From Microcystis elabens FACHB-917 (lineage in GTDB: Bacteria > Cyanobacteriota > Cyanobacteriia > PCC-6307 > Cyanobiaceae), in contig NZ_JACJSZ010000003.1 in NCBI RefSeq assembly GCF_014698445.1, forward strand, positions 1 through 64,000: a DNA stretch of 64,000 bases. Reading direction: 5' to 3'. Both the position numbers and the translations under genes were made by a program. The notes under the pieces were generated by a model. The model was not told the origin of the DNA. It saw only the letters and a list, made by a program, of their open reading frames with translations, and searched no databases. This document shows, piece by piece, positions 9,756-46,343 of the stretch (positions are counted from its first letter, which is position 1; the number at the start of each line of letters is the position of its first letter).

Positions 9756-10510
9756 GAGGCTTCGAAGAGAAGATCGCGGTACGAGCCCGCGTCGGAGAGA
9801 ACGGCGGAGAGACGGTAACCCCGGGCATGAAGATAGTCAGATACATCCACAGTTCTGACTTCGACAAGAATCCAATGGGGCCGATATCTCGAGAAATCAA
9901 GACCTCGCAGCACGCAGAGTTCATTGCCTTCAACATCAAGACTCAGAAGATCGAACTTTTCGGGCGCCGCGACCTCGTCAAGCAGGCTGGTCAGGGTGCG
10001 CGCTACGGCGCCAAAGACATGCGCCTCATCACGCTGCATGAGAAAGGAATGGCCTCGCTCGGCGTGTGCGGAAGCCTGCTCAGAACTCACATCAAGATGA
10101 AGTGCCACACTCATGAGATCGGCGTACTGCATCGCGATAAAAGGCTGGTCATAATCAAAGTCGACACAAGCTGCACAACGGAAAGAAGGCCTATTTCCAA
10201 AGCTCCTGTTCCGCACACATTCAATGTACTTCGACGGACTGGGCTCAATCAACAGTCCAGTCCACCCATAGCGCTGTTGCAGCAAATAGGTATTGGCCTG
10301 AGCAAGACCATTGTTGGCGCCAAGCTCGACAAAGAAACCAGGTCGCTTCAATTCATCGGGTTGGATAGATTCCAGCAAACGAAAATCCAAGCCCTCGAGA
10401 CCATAACCGCGGAAACGAGCCAAGAGGAGATGCTTGAGCGTGGCAAGGGTTTGCCGGAATAGGTCGAAGGCTGGCTTGAGTCTGATCAAGGGAATGGGGA
10501 GGCTGGACAA
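9752..10510 (-). CDS. FkbM family methyltransferase (first gene of operon)
   Basis: The 252-residue protein has the FkbM features FFVELGANNGLAQANTYLL, LLIEPSPSKYIECVRNR and FDLLSLDVEGNELCVLRGL. It would methylate a sugar hydroxyl from SAM. No ATG is available at the front: a TAG stands just upstream and the first usable codon is TTG at 10510. A second TTG at 10489 would fit better with the promoter-like sequence at 10525-10554, which would leave only about eight bases of leader for the first start. It opens an eleven-gene overlapping minus-strand operon. Confidence 0.75.
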   Translation of the reverse strand: MSSLPIPLIRLKPAFDLFRQTLATLKHLLLARFRGYGLEGLDFRLLESIQPDELKRPGFFVELGANNGLAQANTYLLQQRYGWTGLLIEPSPSKYIECVRNRSFGNRPSFRCAACVDFDYDQPFIAMQYADLMSVALHLDVSSEQASAHAERGHSFLMQRDEAHVFGAVARTLTSLLDEVAAPEKFDLLSLDVEGNELCVLRGLDFSRYRPHWILVEVRTVDVSDYLHARGYRLSAVLSDAGSYRDLLFEAS

Positions 10511-36998: not shown

Positions 36999-37004
36999 CG
37001 CCGA

Positions 37005-38785
37005 TCAGCCCTCCACAGGGATCGATTCTCCAGCCTGGGAGGCCCCTGCCATTCGTCGGAATCCGGGGCTTGTGGCCTGCAGTTCGGCATAGGTCCCGAT
37101 GCCATGGATCTGGCCTCCCTGAAGCTCGATGATCCTGTGACAACGCTGCAGCGTGCTCAGGCGACGAGTCACCATTACCACGGTATGGCTGTGGCCGTGC
37201 TGCCAGAGCGAATCGATCGCAGCCTGCTCGGTAATGGTGTCGAGGGCGCTGGTGGCCTCATCGAGAATCAGCACATCGGCCTGCTTGTAGAGGGCTCTGG
37301 CAATCCTGAGCCGCTAGCGCTGGCCGCCGCTGAGCCGCACCCCCTGCTCCCCAACCGGGGTATCGAATCCCTGGGGCGGCTTCGAGATGAAGTCCTTCGC
37401 CTGGGCCGAGGCCGCCGCCCAGTCCAACCGTTCCAGATCGACCTGCTCGGGGGGAAGGCAGAAGGCGATGTTCGCGGCGATCGAGGCATCGGCCAGAAAG
37501 ATGGTCTGGGGCACATGGGCCAGATGACGCTGCCAGGCCGAACGCCGGTCGATCGAACCCGCCGGCTCCTCCAGGGGTAACCCATCCACGCAGATCTGCC
37601 CCAGGCTCGGGGACAGCAGCCCCATCAGCAGATCCAGCAGGGTGCTCTTGCCACTGCCGGTGGCCCCCACCAGGCTGATCCACGCGCCGGGGCGGATGCT
37701 CAGATCGATGCCTTGGAGAACGGCAACGCCGCCCTGATGGCAGAACTCCACCTGCCGGAACTTCAGTCCCTTCTCAAACGGCAGGACTTCGGGTTGAGCC
37801 ACGGGGGAGGCCGGTTGCGCAAACACCCGGAGGGGGGTTCCCTGCTCCACGAGTTCAAGCCCGCCGGCCAGTGCATCGCGGTAGGCCCCCAGATAGGTGG
37901 AGGCCCCATACATGTACTGCACCGCCGGCAGGGCCGCCACCACCCAGCCGCGGGGCAGAAGCCACAGCACCGATCCGGCGATCGCCACCATGCTCGCCGC
38001 CTCCAGGGCAAAACGGGGAAGGCCGGCCACGGTGTCGGCTTCGGCCTGCAGCAGCATCAGGGGACGCTGGGCGCGGCGGTAGGTGTCCACATATAACGGC
38101 TGGCAGCCATCCAGCAACACATCGCGGATGGCAACGAGGCCCTCCTGCTGGGCCTTGAGCGAGCGCTGGCTGTAGTGGTCCGAAAGCACGCTGATGCGGT
38201 GAAGGCGGCGGCGATTCAGCCGGGCCATGGCCCCATAGGTGGCCAGGAACACGGCCTCAAGCCCCAGGACCAGGGTCGGCTGGTAGGCCAGGAGCCCCGC
38301 CACCAGCACCGCCGCCACGATCAGGCCCGAGAGGCCCTGCAGCAACGGGGCCAGGACACCCCGGCTGATCGCCCCCAGATACCCCAGCCGCGGGATCACC
38401 TCGCTGCTGTTGCGTCCCAGGTGCACCACGTTGGGCTGCTCCAGGGTGCGGCGCAGCCCTCCACCGCCAAGTCGCTGCCGATCAGGGCGGAGAGGCGAGC
38501 ATTCACCAAGAGGTTGGCGGCCCGGATCGCCGCGCTCACCACGCTCGCCGCCATCAGCAGCAGAGTGATCGGCAGGATCAGCTGCTGGGGGCCGCTGAAG
38601 CCCAGGGCCTCGGCCGCGCTCCGCACCCAGGGCTGGCACCAGAGACCGGCCGGATCGGAGAGGGCCACCAGGAAGGGCACCAGGCTGGCGATCGTGAGCA
38701 GCTCGGCAAAGCTGCTCAGCAGCATCAGAGACACCAGCAAGGCCAACTGGACCCTCCGCCGGGGCTGGATATGGCCCCAGAGCAT
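37005..38785 (-). pseudogene. Broken ABC exporter gene (permease-ATPase)
   Basis: Related in layout to the intact exporter at 25667-27508. The N-terminal part (38785 to about 38460) reads LALLVSLMLLSSFAELLTIA and GSDLAVEG; a one-base frameshift then moves to the frame with LRRTLEQPNVVHLGRNSSEV. Walker A is GATGSGKST. Directly after LSGGQR a TAG (37314-37316) replaces the Gln codon of the LSGGQRQR signature. The rest (RIARALYKQADVLILDEATS) follows in frame to 37005. One nonsense and one frameshift change, so it cannot make a working protein, but decay is recent because the remaining motifs are intact. Confidence 0.85.
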
Positions 38786-38831: not shown

Positions 38832-39063
38832 TCACCCGGCCAGGACCTTCATCAGGCTGCCCATCTCGAGGGCTTGCGGCCATGGCTCCAGGCCAGGTTG
38901 CTCTTGATGCCGGCCCGCTCAAGGCTGTCGGTGGTGAGCACGTCAAAGATCACAGGGATGCACGTGCGCGGTCCACGGCGGTGAAGCCCTGGCTTACCTG
39001 GGCCACCACCACGGCGGTACGCAGATCGGCCATATCGGTGAAGCGCCCTTCGAAAACCGTCAA
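38832..39063 (-). pseudogene. ribH: Degraded second copy of ribH
   Basis: Begins [20 protein letters not shown] like the intact ribH at 40859, then jumps to QVSQGFTAVDR (the family block VVVAEVSKG), a deletion of roughly 65 codons. A frameshift leads to IPVIFDVLTTDSLERAGIK and SNLAWSHG, and another to EMGSLMKVLAG. Substrate-site and pentamer segments are lost. It follows the psbZ copy at 39069 exactly as ribH follows psbZ at 41349, so the pair is a duplicated unit. Confidence 0.85.
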
Positions 39064-39068
39064 CACTT

Positions 39069-39257
39069 TCAGACCACGAGATAGCTCATCCCCCAGTTCA
39101 CCAGCACCAGGGCCACCCAGGCCGCTCCACCCAGCAGGATCAGGCGGTTGGAGCGGCCGCTGTCCTCGCTGCTCGCATAGAGCACCGGCACCGCCACGAT
39201 CAGGGCGAAGGACAGCACCACCAGGGCCAGAACGGTGAGGGTGTTGAGGATCTGCAT
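39069..39257 (-). CDS. psbZ: Photosystem II protein Z, extra copy
   Basis: Complete 62-residue PsbZ with two membrane helices (about 4-25 and 38-60) and the lumen/stroma loop [12 protein letters not shown]. It differs from the copy at 41349 at 7 of 62 positions (about 89 % identical), with all changes conservative. Sequence similarity between the two loci stops at the start codon, so this copy lacks the native upstream region; it lies 85 bases after rmlC and would rely on that transcript. Reading frame undamaged, unlike the ribH relic next to it. Confidence 0.88.
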   Translation of the reverse strand: MQILNTLTVLALVVLSFALIVAVPVLYASSEDSGRSNRLILLGGAAWVALVLVNWGMSYLVV

Positions 39258-39342
39258 GGGCAGGGAGGCTCGAGGCCGGATCAGGCAGCGTGGGTGATCC
39301 TGCCATGGACGTTGGGGCCGAGCCTGGAGCCAGCGCCATCCG

Positions 39343-39957
39343 TCACACGTTGTGGGCAGGGGCAGGGTGAGGAGAGAAGAGATCCCCTGCCGCCGCAAGG
39401 GCTTCCAGGCCAGGTGCTTCGGCGTCCTTGGGGGCCAGCAGGGGCTGGTGGGGAGCCGGCAGCTCCTCCAGGGGCCAGGCGATGGCGAGGGCCGTGTCGT
39501 TCCAGGCGAGGGAGCGCTCGCACTCCCGGCTCCAGTAGCCGGCGGTCTTGTACTGCACCTCGGCCACCGCGCTCAGGGTCAGGAAGCCGTGGGCGAAGCC
39601 CACCGGCACCCAGAGCTGCTGGTGGTTGTCGGCACTGAGCCGCACTCCCACCCACTGGCCCAGGGTGGCCGAGTCCTGGCGCAGGTCCACGGCCACGTCG
39701 TACACCTCCCCCAGCGTGCAGCGCACGAGCTTGCCCTGGGGATGGGGCTGCCGCTGGAAATGCAGTCCCCGCAGCACCCCCTGGACGGAGCGGGAGTGGT
39801 TGTCCTGCACGAAGTCGGGAGCCTCCGCCTCGCTCACCCCCAGAGCCTCGGAGAAGCGGCGCCGGTTCCAGCTCTCACTGAACCAGCCCCGGTCGTCGGC
39901 ATACACCGCCGGGGTGAGCAGCAGGGGGCCTTCGATGGCCAGGAACTGCACGTTCAT
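39343..39957 (-). CDS. rfbC: dTDP-4-dehydrorhamnose 3,5-epimerase
   Basis: RmlC enzyme of the dTDP-L-rhamnose pathway. The 204-residue cupin protein has [31 protein letters not shown] (catalytic His in RGLHFQ), [19 protein letters not shown] and [14 protein letters not shown]. It is slightly longer than usual at the C-terminus. The start overlaps the rmlA stop by ATGA. RmlB and RmlD are not in the window. The pair rmlA-rmlC lies between the two psbZ-ribH copies. Confidence 0.93.
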
Positions 39958-40862
39958 CGTTGGGGCTCCAGGGCCTTGTGGTCGCTGGCGGCTTCCTGCA
40001 GCAGGCGCAGCAGGTAGTCGCCGTAGCCGGATTTCCTGACGGGCAACGCCAGCCGCTCCAGCTGGACATCGTCGATCCAGCCCAGCCGCCAGGCCACCTC
40101 CTCGGGGCAGCCCACCTTGAGCCCCTGGCGTTTCTCCAGGGTGCGGATGTAGCTGGCGGCCTCGTGCAGGGAGTCCGGAGTGCCGGTGTCGAGCCAGGCC
40201 ATGCCGCGGCCCATCAGCTCCACCCGCAGCAGGCCGTCATCGAGGTAGAGCTGGTTGAGATCGGTGATCTCCAGCTCGCCCCGCGGCGAAGGGCGCACCT
40301 GGCGGGCCCGCTCCACCACCGTGTGGTCGTAGAAGTACAGCCCGGTGACGGCGTAGCGGCTGCGGGGCTGTTCCGGCTTCTCCTCGATGCTCAGCACCCG
40401 GCCGTCGCCGCTGAACTCCACCACCCCATAGCGCTCGGGGTCGCGCACCGGATAGGTGAACACCGTGGCACCGGGCCGGTCGCCGTTGGCCCCCTGCAGC
40501 TGGGGAATCAGGTCGTGGCCATGGAACAGGTTGTCGCCCAGCACCAGGGCCGCCGGGGCCCCGCCGAGGAAATCGGCGCCGATCAGGAAGGCCTGGGCCA
40601 GCCCGTCGGGGCTGGGCTGCTCCGCGTAGCGGATCTCCATGCCCCAGCCCGCCCCATCCCCCAGCAGCCGCTCGAAGGAGGGCCGGTCGGTGGGGGTGGT
40701 GATCACCAGCACCTCGCGGATCCCCGCCAGCATCAGGGTGCTGAGCGGGTAGTAGATCATCGGCTTGTCGTACACCGGCATCAGCTGCTTGCTGACCGCG
40801 GTGGTGAGGGGGGAGAGCCGGGTGCCGCTGCCGCCGGCCAGGATGATGCCGCGCCGGTTCAT
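39954..40862 (-). CDS. rfbA: Glucose-1-phosphate thymidylyltransferase
   Basis: RmlA, making dTDP-glucose from glucose 1-phosphate and dTTP. The 302-residue protein has [16 protein letters not shown] at its start, then [47 protein letters not shown] and [12 protein letters not shown]. Length and motifs are fully typical. It overlaps ribH by ATGA-type spacing (40859-40862) and rmlC likewise. dTDP-glucose could feed rhamnose or the dideoxy-amino sugar suggested by the DegT/SDR pair. Confidence 0.94.
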
Positions 40863-41344
40863 GGGCGGGAGGGCAGCGACGCCATCAGGCTGCCCATCTC
40901 CAGCGCCTGCAGGCCGTAGCTCCAGCCCAGGTTGCTCTTGATGCCGGCCCGCTCCAGGGCCTGCTGCAGGGTGTCGGTGGTCAGCACCCCGAAGATCACG
41001 GGGATGCCCGTGTCGCGGGCCACGGCGGCCACGCCCTTGCTCACCTCGGCCACCACCACGTCGAAGTGGGGGGTGTCGCCCCGGATCACCGCCCCCAGGG
41101 TGATCACCACCTGGTAGCGGCCGCTGGCGGCGAGCCGCTGGGCCACCAGGGGGATCTCGAAGCTGCCCGGCACCCAGGCCACATCCAGCTGGGAGCTCTC
41201 GGGGGTGACGTCGATGCCGTGGCGAGACAGGGAATCCAGGCAGCCGCTCAGCAGCTTGCCGGTCACCAGATCATTGAACCGGGCCACCACCAACGCGAAG
41301 CGCAGACTCGCCACGTCGGTGAAGCGACCTTCGAAAACCGTCAA
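40859..41344 (-). CDS. ribH: 6,7-dimethyl-8-ribityllumazine synthase
   Basis: Penultimate enzyme of riboflavin synthesis. The 161-residue protein contains [36 protein letters not shown] (substrate site), [16 protein letters not shown] and [20 protein letters not shown]. The only available start is a TTG (41344), 4 bases after psbZ, which the reading frame and the family N-terminus support. It is the intact counterpart of the relic at 38832-39063, and is followed at once by rmlA, which is not its usual neighbour. Confidence 0.93.
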
Positions 41345-41348
41345 GGGG

Positions 41349-41537
41349 TCAGACCACGAAGAAGCTCATGCCCCAGTTGAGCAGCACCAGGGCCACCCAG
41401 ACCAGCCCCCCGAGCAGGATCAGCCGGTTGGAGCGGCCGCTGTCCTCGCTGCTGGCGTAGAGCACCGGGACCGCCACGATCAGGACGAAGGACATCACCA
41501 CCAGAGCCAGAACAGTCAGCGTGTTGAGGATCTGCAT
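41349..41537 (-). CDS. psbZ: Photosystem II protein Z
   Basis: 62-residue PsbZ (Ycf9), a small two-helix subunit at the photosystem II periphery that affects supercomplex contacts. Start at the ATG at 41537, with its own upstream region (an AT-rich TGATAAATT lies about 30 bases before it on the minus strand). Motifs: [46 protein letters not shown]. The ribH gene follows 4 bases later. This is the ancestral-looking copy; a divergent copy sits at 39069. Confidence 0.95.
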
Positions 41538-41714
41538 GGCAAGACAGCAGCAGATTGTTGCGCCAGTAATTTATCATGGGAAAACCCAACGCCCTGTGAG
41601 TGCGGCAGGTCCTTCACACTTTGTGGGGATGGAAGACGTAGGGTTGGGGATAAAGCCGCATCAGAGATGCCGACGCAAGTTCGTCAGAAGCGACTGGAGA
41701 TCTCTTTCGGAGCG

Positions 41715-43195
41715 ATGTCCACTCCAGAGGGCAAGGCCATTGGGCTGATCGTACTGGGCGCGCTTCTGATGAGCTTCATCTACTTTGATGCCTTCATCTA
41801 CGACGTCCTTGCCTATCATGGCCCCTTCGCAGCCTTGGCGGCACGTATACCGCGCCTGAGCGAGTCCAGCTCTCTGACTTTATGCAGAGGCGCTATGAAG
41901 GGTTTCCACCATTATGGCGCTGGGCACTGGCTCCCGGCCTGGCTTTGGGAATGCCCCGACTGCTGCTGATGCCCAACCTCGTGGGCCTCGCGATGTATAC
42001 CTGGGCTGGACGACGATGCCTGGGCACGGCCTGGACGGTGGGAGTGGCCAGCGCCTTCCTTTTCCCGATTGCCCTGTTCGGCTTCCATTCTGCCTACCAG
42101 GACTTCTTCTCCGCCATGATGCTGAGTGCCGGCCTGATCGCTCTCAGCACAGCACTGCATCACTGGTACGTTCAGCAATCCAGCAAGGAAGCCTTTCTGA
42201 TCGCGGCTCCATGCCTGCTGGCCGCTTCTCTCACCAAATACCAGGGACTGATCCAGGCGATCCTTGCCTGGCTGGTGGGGGTCGGCTTCATCGCAATCTT
42301 CCTGCTCCTAAAGCGAAATAGAGCAGAGAAGACCCTTGCACAGCAAGCCTCCCTGAAGGCCGTCCTGCTGTGGATGCTGATCATTGGGGGACTGCTCCTC
42401 GTCCACCCATTGGGCAATCTGATCCATCACGGCAATCCCCTCTATCCGATTGCGGCAGGACCATTCCCCGGACCCGAAGCGACTTATTCAGCGTCTCAGG
42501 AATACACGGCCTTTCTCGGGCCACTGAAGCCTCTGGCCAATCACCTCACCTCCACGACGGAACTCGACTGGATCGCCAGAGGTGTTGTGCCCTCCTACAC
42601 CATCGACCAGGCCAGAAGCCAGATTCAGTATGGAGGCCTGCTCGATCCGCGCGAGATGCGCACCCTGATTCGTTCCGGCGGCAGCTTCGGACCCATCTAC
42701 TTCGTCGTCATCGGCCTGTTCTCCATCTCTGCCTGCCAGGCCTGGCGCAACGCTTCGGGCAGCGGGGGGCAGATCTCACCACAAGGCTTCCTGGTACTGG
42801 CTCTCGCTCCCTATCTTTTACTCTCTGGATTCCTGCCCCAAAGCCATGAACTGCGCTACTACATCGCCCAGCTGGTGCTGCCGGCTTACGCAAGCATTGC
42901 CTGGCTGGCCAGTGGAAGTTCAAGAATGCGCTGGCTCGCATGCTCAATTCTGACGGGATTGGTGATCTCCTTCACCCTGAACTTCATTTATCCGCTAGTC
43001 ATCACCGCCCACGAACATGATCGAACCGGCACTTTCAGTTTCGCAGCCACCTACCCGGTGCGCTTTCTTCCCACACTGAAAGACTGTCTTGCCGACAAAC
43101 AGAAGCCAGCATCACCAATGACCTACGACGATCCAGGCCAAGCCTTTGCCTGCAGGATGATCCTGCCAGCAAGAATCATGGTGAAACAGAAATGA
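41715..43195 (+). pseudogene. Multi-pass membrane protein with a frameshift
   Basis: From the ATG at 41715 the frame reads MSTPEGKAIGLIVLGALLMS and FDAFIYDVLAYHGPFAALAA. From about 41850 on coding continues in another frame: VQLSDFMQRRYEGFPPLW, then about nine hydrophobic segments to 43195 (437 residues from the ATG at 41882). The two parts fit as one protein of about 490 residues, resembling integral-membrane glycosyltransferase-like proteins (HGPFAA near the first loop, WRW region), though the family is not certain. The shift at 41825-41855 may be a real mutation or a sequence error. It might still be translated from 41882 as a shortened protein. Confidence 0.55.
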
Positions 43196-43463
43196 TTCAA
43201 GCAACCATCGGCGAGGTCCACCTGGCAGAGGGTCGATGTTCGACCACGACCGCCGTCCTCCTTGACAAGCCATGGAAGGCAGGTGTGGGATGCTGCCGAT
43301 CTGTCTCACCGATCGGATCGTTCTGATCCCCATTGAGACGCCGACACCCCATCGGAGATGGCCACCGGCTCCCAACAGCTTCGAGAGGGAGGACGATCGG
43401 TTGTGTCGCTGATACCAGCGCTCTGGGAGCGACCTATGCCGCCACCGATAGAGCCCCCCTAGG

Positions 43464-46343
43464 ATGGAAGGCCCCATCCCTAGTGCCATGACCGGGCGCG
43501 CGGCGGCCTCGGCGGAACAGCAGCTGTCCCTGGTGGCCGATCTCGGGGTTCAAATCGACCTGTTCGCCGCCGCGCCGATCGTCCCGGCAGCCGGAGCGAC
43601 GGACCCGGCCGGGCCTACGGAAGCGGACCTCACCGCCGCAGCCCTCAGGGCCGATGCCTGCTCCCGACCACGGCCCAGAAGACCGAGCGGCAGCAGCGCA
43701 ACCGGAACGGACCCGGATACGGAGCCAAAGGAGTCGGAAGGCCTGCTGGAGCCAGCGATCGAACCTGGCGGCGGCGACGGGGGCGAGACGGACCTGCCCC
43801 GCTGGCACCACCATTCCCTGGTGGACCCCGCCGCGCTCACCCCGGTGCTGCGCCACTACGTGGAGCTGAAGGCGGCCCATCCGGACCGGGTGCTGCTCTA
43901 CCGGCTGGGCGACTTCTACGAATTCTTCTTCGAGGACGCGATCCTGCTCTCGCGCCTGCTGGAGCTCACCCTCACCGGCAAGGACGCCGGCAAGGGCATC
44001 GGCCGGGTGCCGATGGCGGGCATCCCCCACCACGCCGCCGAGCGCTACTGCGCCGACCTGGTGCGCCGGGGCCTCAGCGTGGCCCTGTGCGACCAGCTGG
44101 AGGCCACCCCCGCCAAGGGGGCCCTGCTGCGCCGCGGCATCACCCGGGTGCTGACCCCCGGCACGGTGCTCGAGGAGGGGATGCTGACCGCCCGCCGCAA
44201 CAACTGGCTCTGCGCCGTGGTGCTGGAAGGGGATGGCAGCGACGCCAGCCACTGGGGCCTGGCCGTCGCCGATGTGAGCACCGGGGAGTTCCGGGTGACC
44301 GAACGCCGCGGCAGCGGCGCCCTTCACCAAGAGCTGCTGCAGCTGGAACCGGCCGAGGTGGTGTGGCCCGCCGGCACGGGGGAGGCCCCCGCCTGGTGCC
44401 CCGAGGGCCTGCGGCTAACGCCCCTGGCCCGCACCCCCTTCGAGACCCCCGAGGCCGGCGCCCTGCTGCGCCGTCGCTTCCGGTTGGCCAGCCTCGACGG
44501 CCTGGGGCTGGGGGAGGCCCCCCTGGCGCTGCGGGCCGCCGGGGGCCTGCTGGCCTATCTGGACACCACCCAGCCGGCGCCGGAGGCGGCTCCATCGGCC
44601 CAGGCTGCCGGCGGCACGGCGATCCCCCTGGAGATGCCCCGGCTGTGGCACGCCGGCGACCAGCTGGTGCTCGACGCCCAGACCCGCCGCAACCTGGAAC
44701 TCACCCGCACCCAGCTGGGCGGGGCCCTGCAGGGATCGCTGCTGTGGGCCCTCGACCGCACCGCCACCGCCATGGGCGGCCGCTGCCTGCGGCGCTGGAT
44801 CGAGGCCCCCCTGGTGGACCGCGCGGCGATCCTGGAGCGCCAGGAGGCGGTGAGCGAGCTGGTGGCCCAGCGGTCCCTGCGGCTGGGCCTGCGCCGGCTG
44901 CTGCGGCCCATGGGGGATCTGGAGCGGCTGGCGGGCCGGGCCGGGGCCGGCAGCGCCTCCGCCCGCGACCTGGTGGCCCTGGCCGACGGCCTCGAGCGGC
45001 TGCCCCGGCTGGCGGCCCTGGTGACCTCCTGCCGCAGCGCCCTCCTGCAGGCTCTGCAGGGCCCCTGGCCCGACCTGGCGGCCGTGGCCGAACAGGTGCG
45101 CCACCGGCTGGTGGAGACCCCGCCCCTGTCGCTCAGCGACGGCGGCCTGCTGCACGACGGGGTCGATCCGGTGCTCGATGGCCTGCGCAACCAGCTCGAC
45201 GACCAGGAGCAGTGGCTGGCCCGGCAGGAGGCGATCGAACGGCGGGCGAGCGGCAACCCCAACCTGCGCCTCCAGTACCACCGGACCTTCGGCTATTTCC
45301 TGGCGGTGAGCCGCGCCCGGGCCGCCCAGGTGCCCGACCACTGGATCCGCCGCCAGACCCTGGCCAACGAGGAGCGCTTCGTGACCCCGGAGCTCAAGGG
45401 CCGTGAAGGGCGGATCCTGCAGCTGCGGGCCCGGGCCTGCCAGCGGGAATACGACCTCTTCTGCGACCTGCGCCGCCTGGTGGGGGAAGCCGCCGGACCG
45501 ATCCGGGCGGCCGCCCGGCGGGTGGCGGAACTGGATGCCCTCGCCTCCCTGGCGGAGGTGGCGGCCACCGGCGGCTACTGCCGGCCCGAGCTCAGCGAGG
45601 GACGCGAACTGGTGATCGAGGCGGGGCGGCACCCGGTGGTGGAGCAGCTGCTGGTGGACACCCGCTTTACCGCCAACGACCTGCACCTGGCGACCACCGG
45701 CCCCGACGGGGCGCCGGCCCCTGACCTGCTGGTGCTCACCGGCCCGAACGCCAGCGGCAAAAGCTGCTACCTGCGCCAGAGCGGCCTGCTGCAGCTGATG
45801 GCCCAGATCGGCAGCTGGATCCCCGCCCGCGTCGCCCGGCTGGGCATCGCCGATCGCATCTTCACCCGCGTGGGCGCCGTGGACGACCTGGCCAGCGGCC
45901 AGTCCACCTTCATGGTGGAGATGGCCGAGACCGCCAACATCCTTCACCACGCCAGCCCCCGTTCCCTGGTGCTCCTCGACGAGATCGGCCGGGGCACCGC
46001 CACCTTCGATGGCCTCTCGATCGCCTGGGCCGTGGCGGAACACCTGGCCGACGGCATCGGCGCCCGCACCATCTTCGCCACCCACTACCACGAGCTCAAC
46101 GAACTGGCCGAGCTGCTGCCCAACGTGGGCAACGCCCAGGTGCTGGTGGAGGAGACGGGCAACGACCTGGTGTTCCTGCACCGGGTCTGCCGGGGGGGCG
46201 CCAGCCGCAGCTACGGCATCGAGGCGGCCCGGCTGGCGGGGGTGCCCGCCTCGGTTGTGCTGCGGGCCCGCCAGGTGCTGGGCCGGATCGAGGCCAACAG
46301 CCACGTGGCGGTGGGGCTTCAGGGCGGCTCCCGGGCCGCCTGA
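43464..46343 (+). CDS. mutS: DNA mismatch repair protein MutS
   Basis: ATPase that recognises mismatches. The 959-residue protein has a 115-residue low-complexity N-terminal extension, then the mismatch-binding domain with [10 protein letters not shown] (Phe-x-Glu, near 150), connector and lever domains, and the ATPase with Walker [14 protein letters not shown] near 760 and Walker [16 protein letters not shown] near 835, followed by [11 protein letters not shown]. The Walker A loop reads NASGKSC where most MutS have NMAGKST. Start could also be the ATG at 43488. It ends with a 25-base overlap with the convergent cobH. Confidence 0.94.

Follow-up and report, generated by a model that had tools for sequence, protein, structure and literature searches.

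The DNA analysed here, a window of 64,000 nucleotides from Microcystis elabens FACHB-917 (assembly GCF_014698445.1, contig NZ_JACJSZ010000003.1, positions 1 to 64,000), carries two copies of the photosystem II gene psbZ, each adjoined by the lumazine synthase gene ribH, which is intact beside one copy and degraded beside the other. Comparison of this locus among relatives argues strongly for a relocation of psbZ. Very probably, a duplicate arose in the ancestor of a clade of 16 species, the copies were lost unequally among its descendants, and three species, the present one included, kept the intermediate. We observed three gene-order states and their distribution on the tree, remnants of lost genes, a leader shared by the distal psbZ copies and a pattern of selection on both copies. 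An initial annotation had suggested that the repeated pair might be a scar left by a polysaccharide island. Its observation was right but its depth was wrong: this is an old, clade-wide duplication through which a photosystem gene was relocated, and not a recent island scar. The event is of a known, ordinary kind, and as an example it is unusually complete.

On the minus strand, the window reads psbZ, ribH, rmlA, rmlC, a second psbZ and a relic of ribH. The proximal psbZ (41349-41537) occupies the ancestral position beside the intact ribH (40859-41344), which has a TTG start and matches Pfam DMRL_synthase with 164 bits. The next gene (39954-40862; NTP_transferase, 244 bits) we take to be rmlA, encoding glucose-1-phosphate thymidylyltransferase; Pfam itself gives the nucleotidyl transferase family. 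It is followed by rmlC, encoding dTDP-4-dehydrorhamnose 3,5-epimerase (39343-39957; dTDP_sugar_isom, 218 bits), by the leader of the distal psbZ (39258-39307), by the distal psbZ itself (39069-39257) and by the ribH relic (38832-39068). Both psbZ copies are intact open reading frames (ORFs) of 62 amino acids, separated by 2280 bp, and the PF01737 (Ycf9) profile matches residues 6-61 of each with 63 bits. The copies are 88% identical over an ungapped repeat of 191 nt that starts 2 nt upstream of the start codon, and the proteins differ at 7 of 62 residues (15, 18, 45, 46, 53, 59 and 60). ORFs, repeat alignment and Pfam matches thus bear out what had been described from the letters alone, namely two same-strand psbZ-ribH pairs flanking rmlA and rmlC and two open psbZ genes with seven differences. 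The further statement that the genome is merodiploid for psbZ is likewise supported.

To place this arrangement, 42 genomes of the genus were searched and their loci read for gene order. We call the genus Cyanobium, since public records name the relatives Cyanobium, Synechococcus or Aphanothece. Among the relatives are Cyanobium sp. CACIAM 14 (G274), Cyanobium sp. N.Huapi 1H5 (G175), Synechococcus sp. BO 8801 (G235), Cyanobium sp. Aljojuca 7A6 (G257), Aphanothece saxicola (G198), Synechococcus sp. CCY 0621 (G113), Kiruna_bin-04642 (G005), Cyanobium sp. Cruz CV13-4-11 (G286) and Cyanobium sp. N5-Cardenillas (G330). A divergent neighbour, mutS (43464-46343, plus strand; Pfam MutS I-V), anchors the locus; of 41 rows, comprising this genome and L039-L078, 37 contain it over at least 1500 bases. 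State A, found in 21 of the 42 genomes, has a single psbZ, in the order mutS side and then psbZ-ribH. State B, psbZ-ribH-rmlA-rmlC-psbZ with identical junctions, was found in three (this genome, G226 and G274). The remaining classed genomes, 13 in number, show state C, ribH-rmlA-rmlC-psbZ, with only a psbZ remnant and no full psbZ before ribH; Cyanobium sp. N.Huapi 1H5 and Synechococcus sp. BO 8801 are among them. Five genomes were left unclassed, three for want of a match (G298, G304, G352) and two because ribH lies at a contig end (G325, G361). In a named collection of 80 loci, some of them from the same genomes, the counts were 59 for A, 1 for B and 8 for C, with 12 unclassed.

The genomes in states B and C belong together. 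In a mutS protein tree they form one clade of 16 with a Shimodaira-Hasegawa-like approximate likelihood-ratio (SH-aLRT) support of 100, in which B (91) and C (98) are sister clades. The ribH tree recovers the 16 (98/97), the three (99/93) and the 13 (96/96), the rmlA tree holds the 16 together at 99, and a tree of psbZ with its leader places all 16 distal copies in one group (100/97). Since the 16 genomes are one clade, both copies predate the split between B and C, and since G226, G274 and 13 further genomes have the rmlC-psbZ junction in common, the duplication is not private to this strain. The earlier judgement that seven differences are too many for a fresh duplication is supported by this age. 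On the other hand, the proposal that the distal copy came with the present island from another strain conflicts with the recurrence of the junction in 15 other genomes. It also conflicts with the sequence behind the distal psbZ: these 900 bases fall into five unrelated types over the 16 genomes (one in this genome and G226, one in ten, one in a pair and two singles), so the extra psbZ is not part of one island.

Inactivation differs between the two copies of the pair, no intact distal ribH being left in 16 of 16 genomes and the proximal psbZ being broken in 13 of 16. A psbZ remnant lies between mutS and ribH in all 13 state-C genomes (local alignment scores of 71-118, compared to maxima of 34-49 in 300 base shuffles each). 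In five of them (L050, L054, L055, L057, L061) what is left is the last 63 bases of psbZ, joined to the leader of mutS. In the remaining eight, about 50-62 bases survive from the 3′ end. The sequence TGGCCCTGGTG occurs twice in psbZ, at bases 29 and 143. In the five-genome form, the 20 bases before the second TGGCCCTGGTG are native (15-18 of 20 matching). In three of the eight (L058-L060), the 20 bases before TGGCCCTGGTG fit the context of the first repeat (15-16 of 20) better than the native one (10 of 20), as if the stretch between the repeats had dropped out, and the psbZ 5′ end detected in these three was reached by none of 1000 shuffles. The L058-L060 form cannot be derived from the five-genome form, which lacks the 5′ end, nor can the reverse be the case, so psbZ was entire or almost entire when these lineages split. 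The proximal psbZ was thus lost in the 13 by at least two different deletions.

The distal ribH is intact in none of the 16 genomes. A clear relic is present here, aligning to ribH with 84% identity over 234 bases, and a weak match in G226; the remaining 14 genomes of the clade yielded no relic on the same strand. Judging from the B clade, the ancestral duplicate probably included ribH. The main deletion in the relic joins two GGTGGTGGCC repeats that are 234 bp apart in intact ribH, and a one-base gap and a 12-base gap are present besides. The gene had been reported as broken with a loss of about 65 codons; broken it is, but the main deletion amounts to about 78 codons.

We next consider the leaders. 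All 16 genomes have an extended −10-like element 50-51 bases before the distal psbZ (in this genome, at the upstream end of the leader), and 19 of 21 state-A genomes have one 48-69 bases before psbZ. The distal leader of this genome aligns to the 21 state-A leaders with a mean score of 9.5, compared to a mean of −0.7 and a maximum of 4.7 for 200 shuffles. Aligned to the state-A leaders, the 52 bases that precede the distal psbZ gave z values of 4.9-7.5 in all 16 genomes (dinucleotide shuffles), whereas the three proximal leaders gave 0.0, 2.4 and 3.3. The block GCCTGA..GGCC occurs in most of the distal leaders (14 of 16) and of the state-A leaders (16 of 21), and in none of 14 leaders from other genera. 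Within this genome it is the proximal leader that is unusual, not the distal one. Similarity between the two copies of the window does stop at the psbZ start codon, as had been noted, yet the distal leader shares homology with psbZ leaders of other Cyanobium genomes. With a psbZ-type leader in 16 of 16 genomes, the distal psbZ would not need to rely on rml transcription, and the suggestion that it does so finds no support in these leaders. This leader, together with an insert of about 1.8 kb before the proximal psbZ, would make the distal copy the better placed of the two for expression.

Both psbZ copies are under purifying selection. The ratio of nonsynonymous to synonymous substitution rates (dN/dS), obtained by Nei-Gojobori counting over few sites, was 0.135 among the proximal copies of the three B genomes, 0.089 among their distal copies (3 pairs each) and 0.038 among the 13 state-C distal copies. 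PsbZ residues 45 (Leu proximal, Ala distal) and 53 (Leu, Val) differ consistently between the copies. Given these residues, the dissimilar leaders and the selection on both copies, the merodiploids might keep two PsbZ isoforms for a reason, possibly as condition-specific photosystem II subunits, with the 13 having kept the distal one only; we regard this as improbable. Both states of residues 45 and 53 also occur in single-copy genomes, which makes them weak evidence of a new function.

Taken as a sequence of steps, the clade ancestor would have gained a second psbZ-ribH behind rmlC, giving mutS | psbZ-ribH-rmlA-rmlC-psbZ′-ribH′. For this, it would be enough that psbZ-ribH-rmlA-rmlC was duplicated in tandem and that the second copies of ribH, rmlA and rmlC were then lost. 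The second psbZ would have retained a psbZ-type leader with its promoter-like element, from which it is presumably transcribed, and the distal ribH would then have been lost. In the 13-species sister clade, destruction of the proximal psbZ would have left the distal psbZ as the sole full copy. Having first stood between mutS and ribH, psbZ would in effect have shifted by about 2 kb and now lie behind rmlC. The present genome and the two others of its three-species clade would represent the intermediate with both psbZ kept. Bacterial gene order is thought to change partly via duplication and differential loss, and the steps are mostly inferred from end states. Here Cyanobium species, with several named strains among them, show the ancestral, intermediate and final orders side by side, and at a photosystem II gene, which makes the steps of the relocation testable. 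A caution also follows, as psbZ in the derived species lies outside its ancestral place.

Extra psbZ copies are rare. Among 400 family genomes searched (E 1e-6), 201 bear psbZ and six of these have a second match. Besides the three B genomes they are G358 and G048, where the second psbZ is degenerate, and G159, where it is a fragment at a contig end. In G358 (L065 4395-5023 and 6073-6365), a degenerate psbZ-ribH shares its strand with the intact pair, from which it is about 10 kb distant; a holA-like fragment is found about 1 kb from it. In this other Cyanobium lineage the region seems to have been duplicated independently. In G048 (L169 14049-14228), from another genus of the family, the degenerate psbZ is inverted, contains one stop codon and lies at a distance of about 5 kb from the intact psbZ.

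We turn to the origin of the duplicate. The initial annotation had named a phylogeny of both copies as the way to tell transfer from duplication in place, and its outcome was divided. For the relic, two larger ribH sets were used, from which named loci with a ribH below 58% G+C or too short were excluded (50 of 71 kept, L088-L158; 39 new rows). The relic falls inside its own clade with 96/95 in the 88-row set, which omits the misaligned rows L127, L145 and L151, and with 100/98 in the 91-row set that includes them; its 14 most similar of 51 rows are all from its own clade. This agrees with a duplication in place. A tree joining the relic and the rest of the genus as one clade was 35.7 log units worse (88 rows; p 0.077 in the approximately unbiased (AU) test).

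Several results weigh against a relocation through duplication in place, or against single steps of it. In the 52-row ribH set the relic is placed, without resolution, outside its own clade (AU p 0.46). With 88 rows, a clade that leaves out the relic was 9.2 log units worse and not rejected (AU p 0.37). The psbZ trees (189 bp; 54 and 91 rows) do not place the two copies as sisters, although a tree constrained to do so was 1.7-12.2 log units worse and not rejected (AU p 0.21 with 54 rows, 0.47 with 91). Nor does psbZ alone give a single group of the 16 distal copies; a one-group tree was not rejected (p 0.44), and in the larger psbZ set the tree holding them together was better by 5.8, but to recover the group the leader has to be included. 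The block GCCTGA..GGCC is in none of the three proximal leaders. Behind ribH, rmlA-rmlC occurs in only one of 22 other loci of the genus (G335), and the rmlA of the clade groups with Synechococcus lacustris, GFB01 and Cyanobium ATX 6A2 (96, 93) instead of with G335. For these two reasons the rmlA-rmlC pair may itself have been acquired by the clade. Behind the distal psbZ we found no relic of a second, clade-type rmlA or rmlC. Regarding the loss of the proximal copy, the 5′ end is not decisive in five of the eight genomes: in the shuffle test L051 was reached by 2 and L052 by 7 of 1000 shuffles, and no 5′ end was detectable in L049, L053 and L056. Finally, G090 (L061) has the five-genome form of the deletion, yet its ribH groups nearer the eight, so the number of deletions is given as at least two and not as exactly two.

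Two candidates for further traces of the event were discarded. An rmlA relic behind the distal psbZ in G005 (L058 at about 10240-10390, near tRNA-Gly) does not qualify as part of the duplicate, as it is up to 79% identical to other lineages and 71-76% to its own clade. The end of rmlC and the −10 region of psbZ have a short string in common, which, judged by eye, is too weak to count as junction microhomology.

Because rmlA-rmlC behind ribH is rare in the rest of the genus, we give duplication in place no more than about even odds against the two import variants together, a chance of about one half. Both variants alter the origin of the duplicate and not the relocation of psbZ. According to the first, the distal psbZ-ribH was imported from a Cyanobium-like strain at the base of the clade, at an island edge, and the proximal pair is native; this sets the reading of the initial annotation at an earlier date. 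This would account for a distal leader far closer to other Cyanobium leaders than the proximal one is, and for copies that are as similar to the rest of the genus (88%) as to each other (88.5%); the degenerate duplicates in G358 and G048 show recurrence at this site. We nevertheless think it rather unlikely, since the ribH relic groups with the clade's own ribH, a tree grouping it with the rest of the genus is 35.7 log units worse (AU p 0.077), and the five types behind the distal psbZ provide no link to one island.

In the second variant, the distal pair is native and a psbZ-ribH-rmlA-rmlC cassette from another lineage was inserted between it and mutS. The genus-type leader on the distal psbZ would be expected in that case. 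The order ribH-rmlA-rmlC, rare in the genus, is also found in other genera such as that of Synechococcus RCC307, and the rmlA grouping given above fits as well. In 28 of 95 loci outside the clade (some genomes counted twice) rmlA lies within 4 kb behind ribH, with a gap of 9 bp in RCC307 and mostly 0.5-1.4 kb in Vulcanococcus, Prochlorococcus and others; rmlA-rmlC in this position is no peculiarity of the present island. However, the relic, which would then be native, groups with the canonical ribH of the clade and not with that of the genus, and no sampled lineage has a proximal-like leader (best outside 8.5/52, compared to 22 for L039-L040). We therefore consider this variant unlikely, marginally more so than the first. 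A recent transfer or tandem duplication in this strain only, for which nothing speaks but the two copies in this window, is refuted: G226 and G274 have the same junctions, and 13 more genomes have rmlC-psbZ. An assembly artefact from mixed strains, conceivable in a draft (3.68 Mb in 121 contigs), is just as implausible, as two further assemblies (L039, L040) show the same junctions and single-contig G090 shows the derived state.

The favoured history, relocation by duplication and differential loss, has known counterparts. In the selection-during-niche-adaptation (SNAP) model, as far as part of the source text goes, gene order changes via duplication followed by inactivation of different genes in the copies, and the duplications, of tens of kilobases and more, are kept by selection during niche adaptation (Brandis and Hughes 2020; PMC7055797); the model has been applied to a ribosomal operon cluster (PMC8046335). 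The psbZ locus resembles this outline in its period with both copies, its reciprocal losses (ribH in one copy, psbZ in the other) and its new gene order. It differs from the outline in that the unit is only about 0.7-2.3 kb, an origin in place has a chance of about one half, and niche selection would be an added assumption here. An old duplication of the tuf gene with differential loss in bacteria was reportedly described by Lathe and Bork in 2001. As with tuf, an old duplicate was kept in some lineages and lost in others; unlike with tuf, the loss moves a photosystem gene within a small locus, and the broken remnants are still readable. Polysaccharide islands of picocyanobacteria adjoin core genes, and the distal psbZ similarly stands at the core side of a variable region, but here one psbZ junction is found in 16 genomes with five unrelated sequence types behind it. 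Among the open-access papers searched we found none joining psbZ, ribH and cyanobacteria, nor one on psbZ gene duplication in Cyanobium, and no title on psbZ copies was among the matches listed in further open-literature searches.

The surroundings of the locus vary as well. The spacer between the proximal psbZ and mutS (41538-43463) holds the insert of about 1.8 kb, which is without counterpart in G226 and G274; the distance from mutS to ribH is 2120 bp here, compared to 284 bp in G226 (L039) and 331 bp in G274 (L040). The insert contains a frame-broken membrane protein gene (about 41700-43195, plus strand) that is split over two frames, with the frame change within 41790-41966, and its main ORF (41882-43195) has no Pfam match. 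Behind the ribH relic, an ABC exporter gene (37001-38785, minus strand) has no single open frame here, whereas 570 stop-free codons are present in G226. A tRNA-Gly(gcc) stands behind ribH, in either orientation, in 10 of 39 loci scanned (L043, L052, L058, L062, L065, L066, L071, L072, L074 and L100), and may help to explain the build-up of islands at this locus; scanning the window revealed none here. In the single-contig genome G062 (L062 7917-8822), the gap between psbZ and ribH is about 240 bp, compared to a few bases elsewhere. Two metagenome bins with cyanobacteria-like ribH are titled Bifidobacterium breve (L088) and Crocinitomicaceae bacterium (L124), so that these titles may be erroneous, or the bins may be mixtures. 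Lastly, contigs C84 and C87 of the present genome carry more stretches resembling the rmlA-rmlC region, with 71-80% identity.

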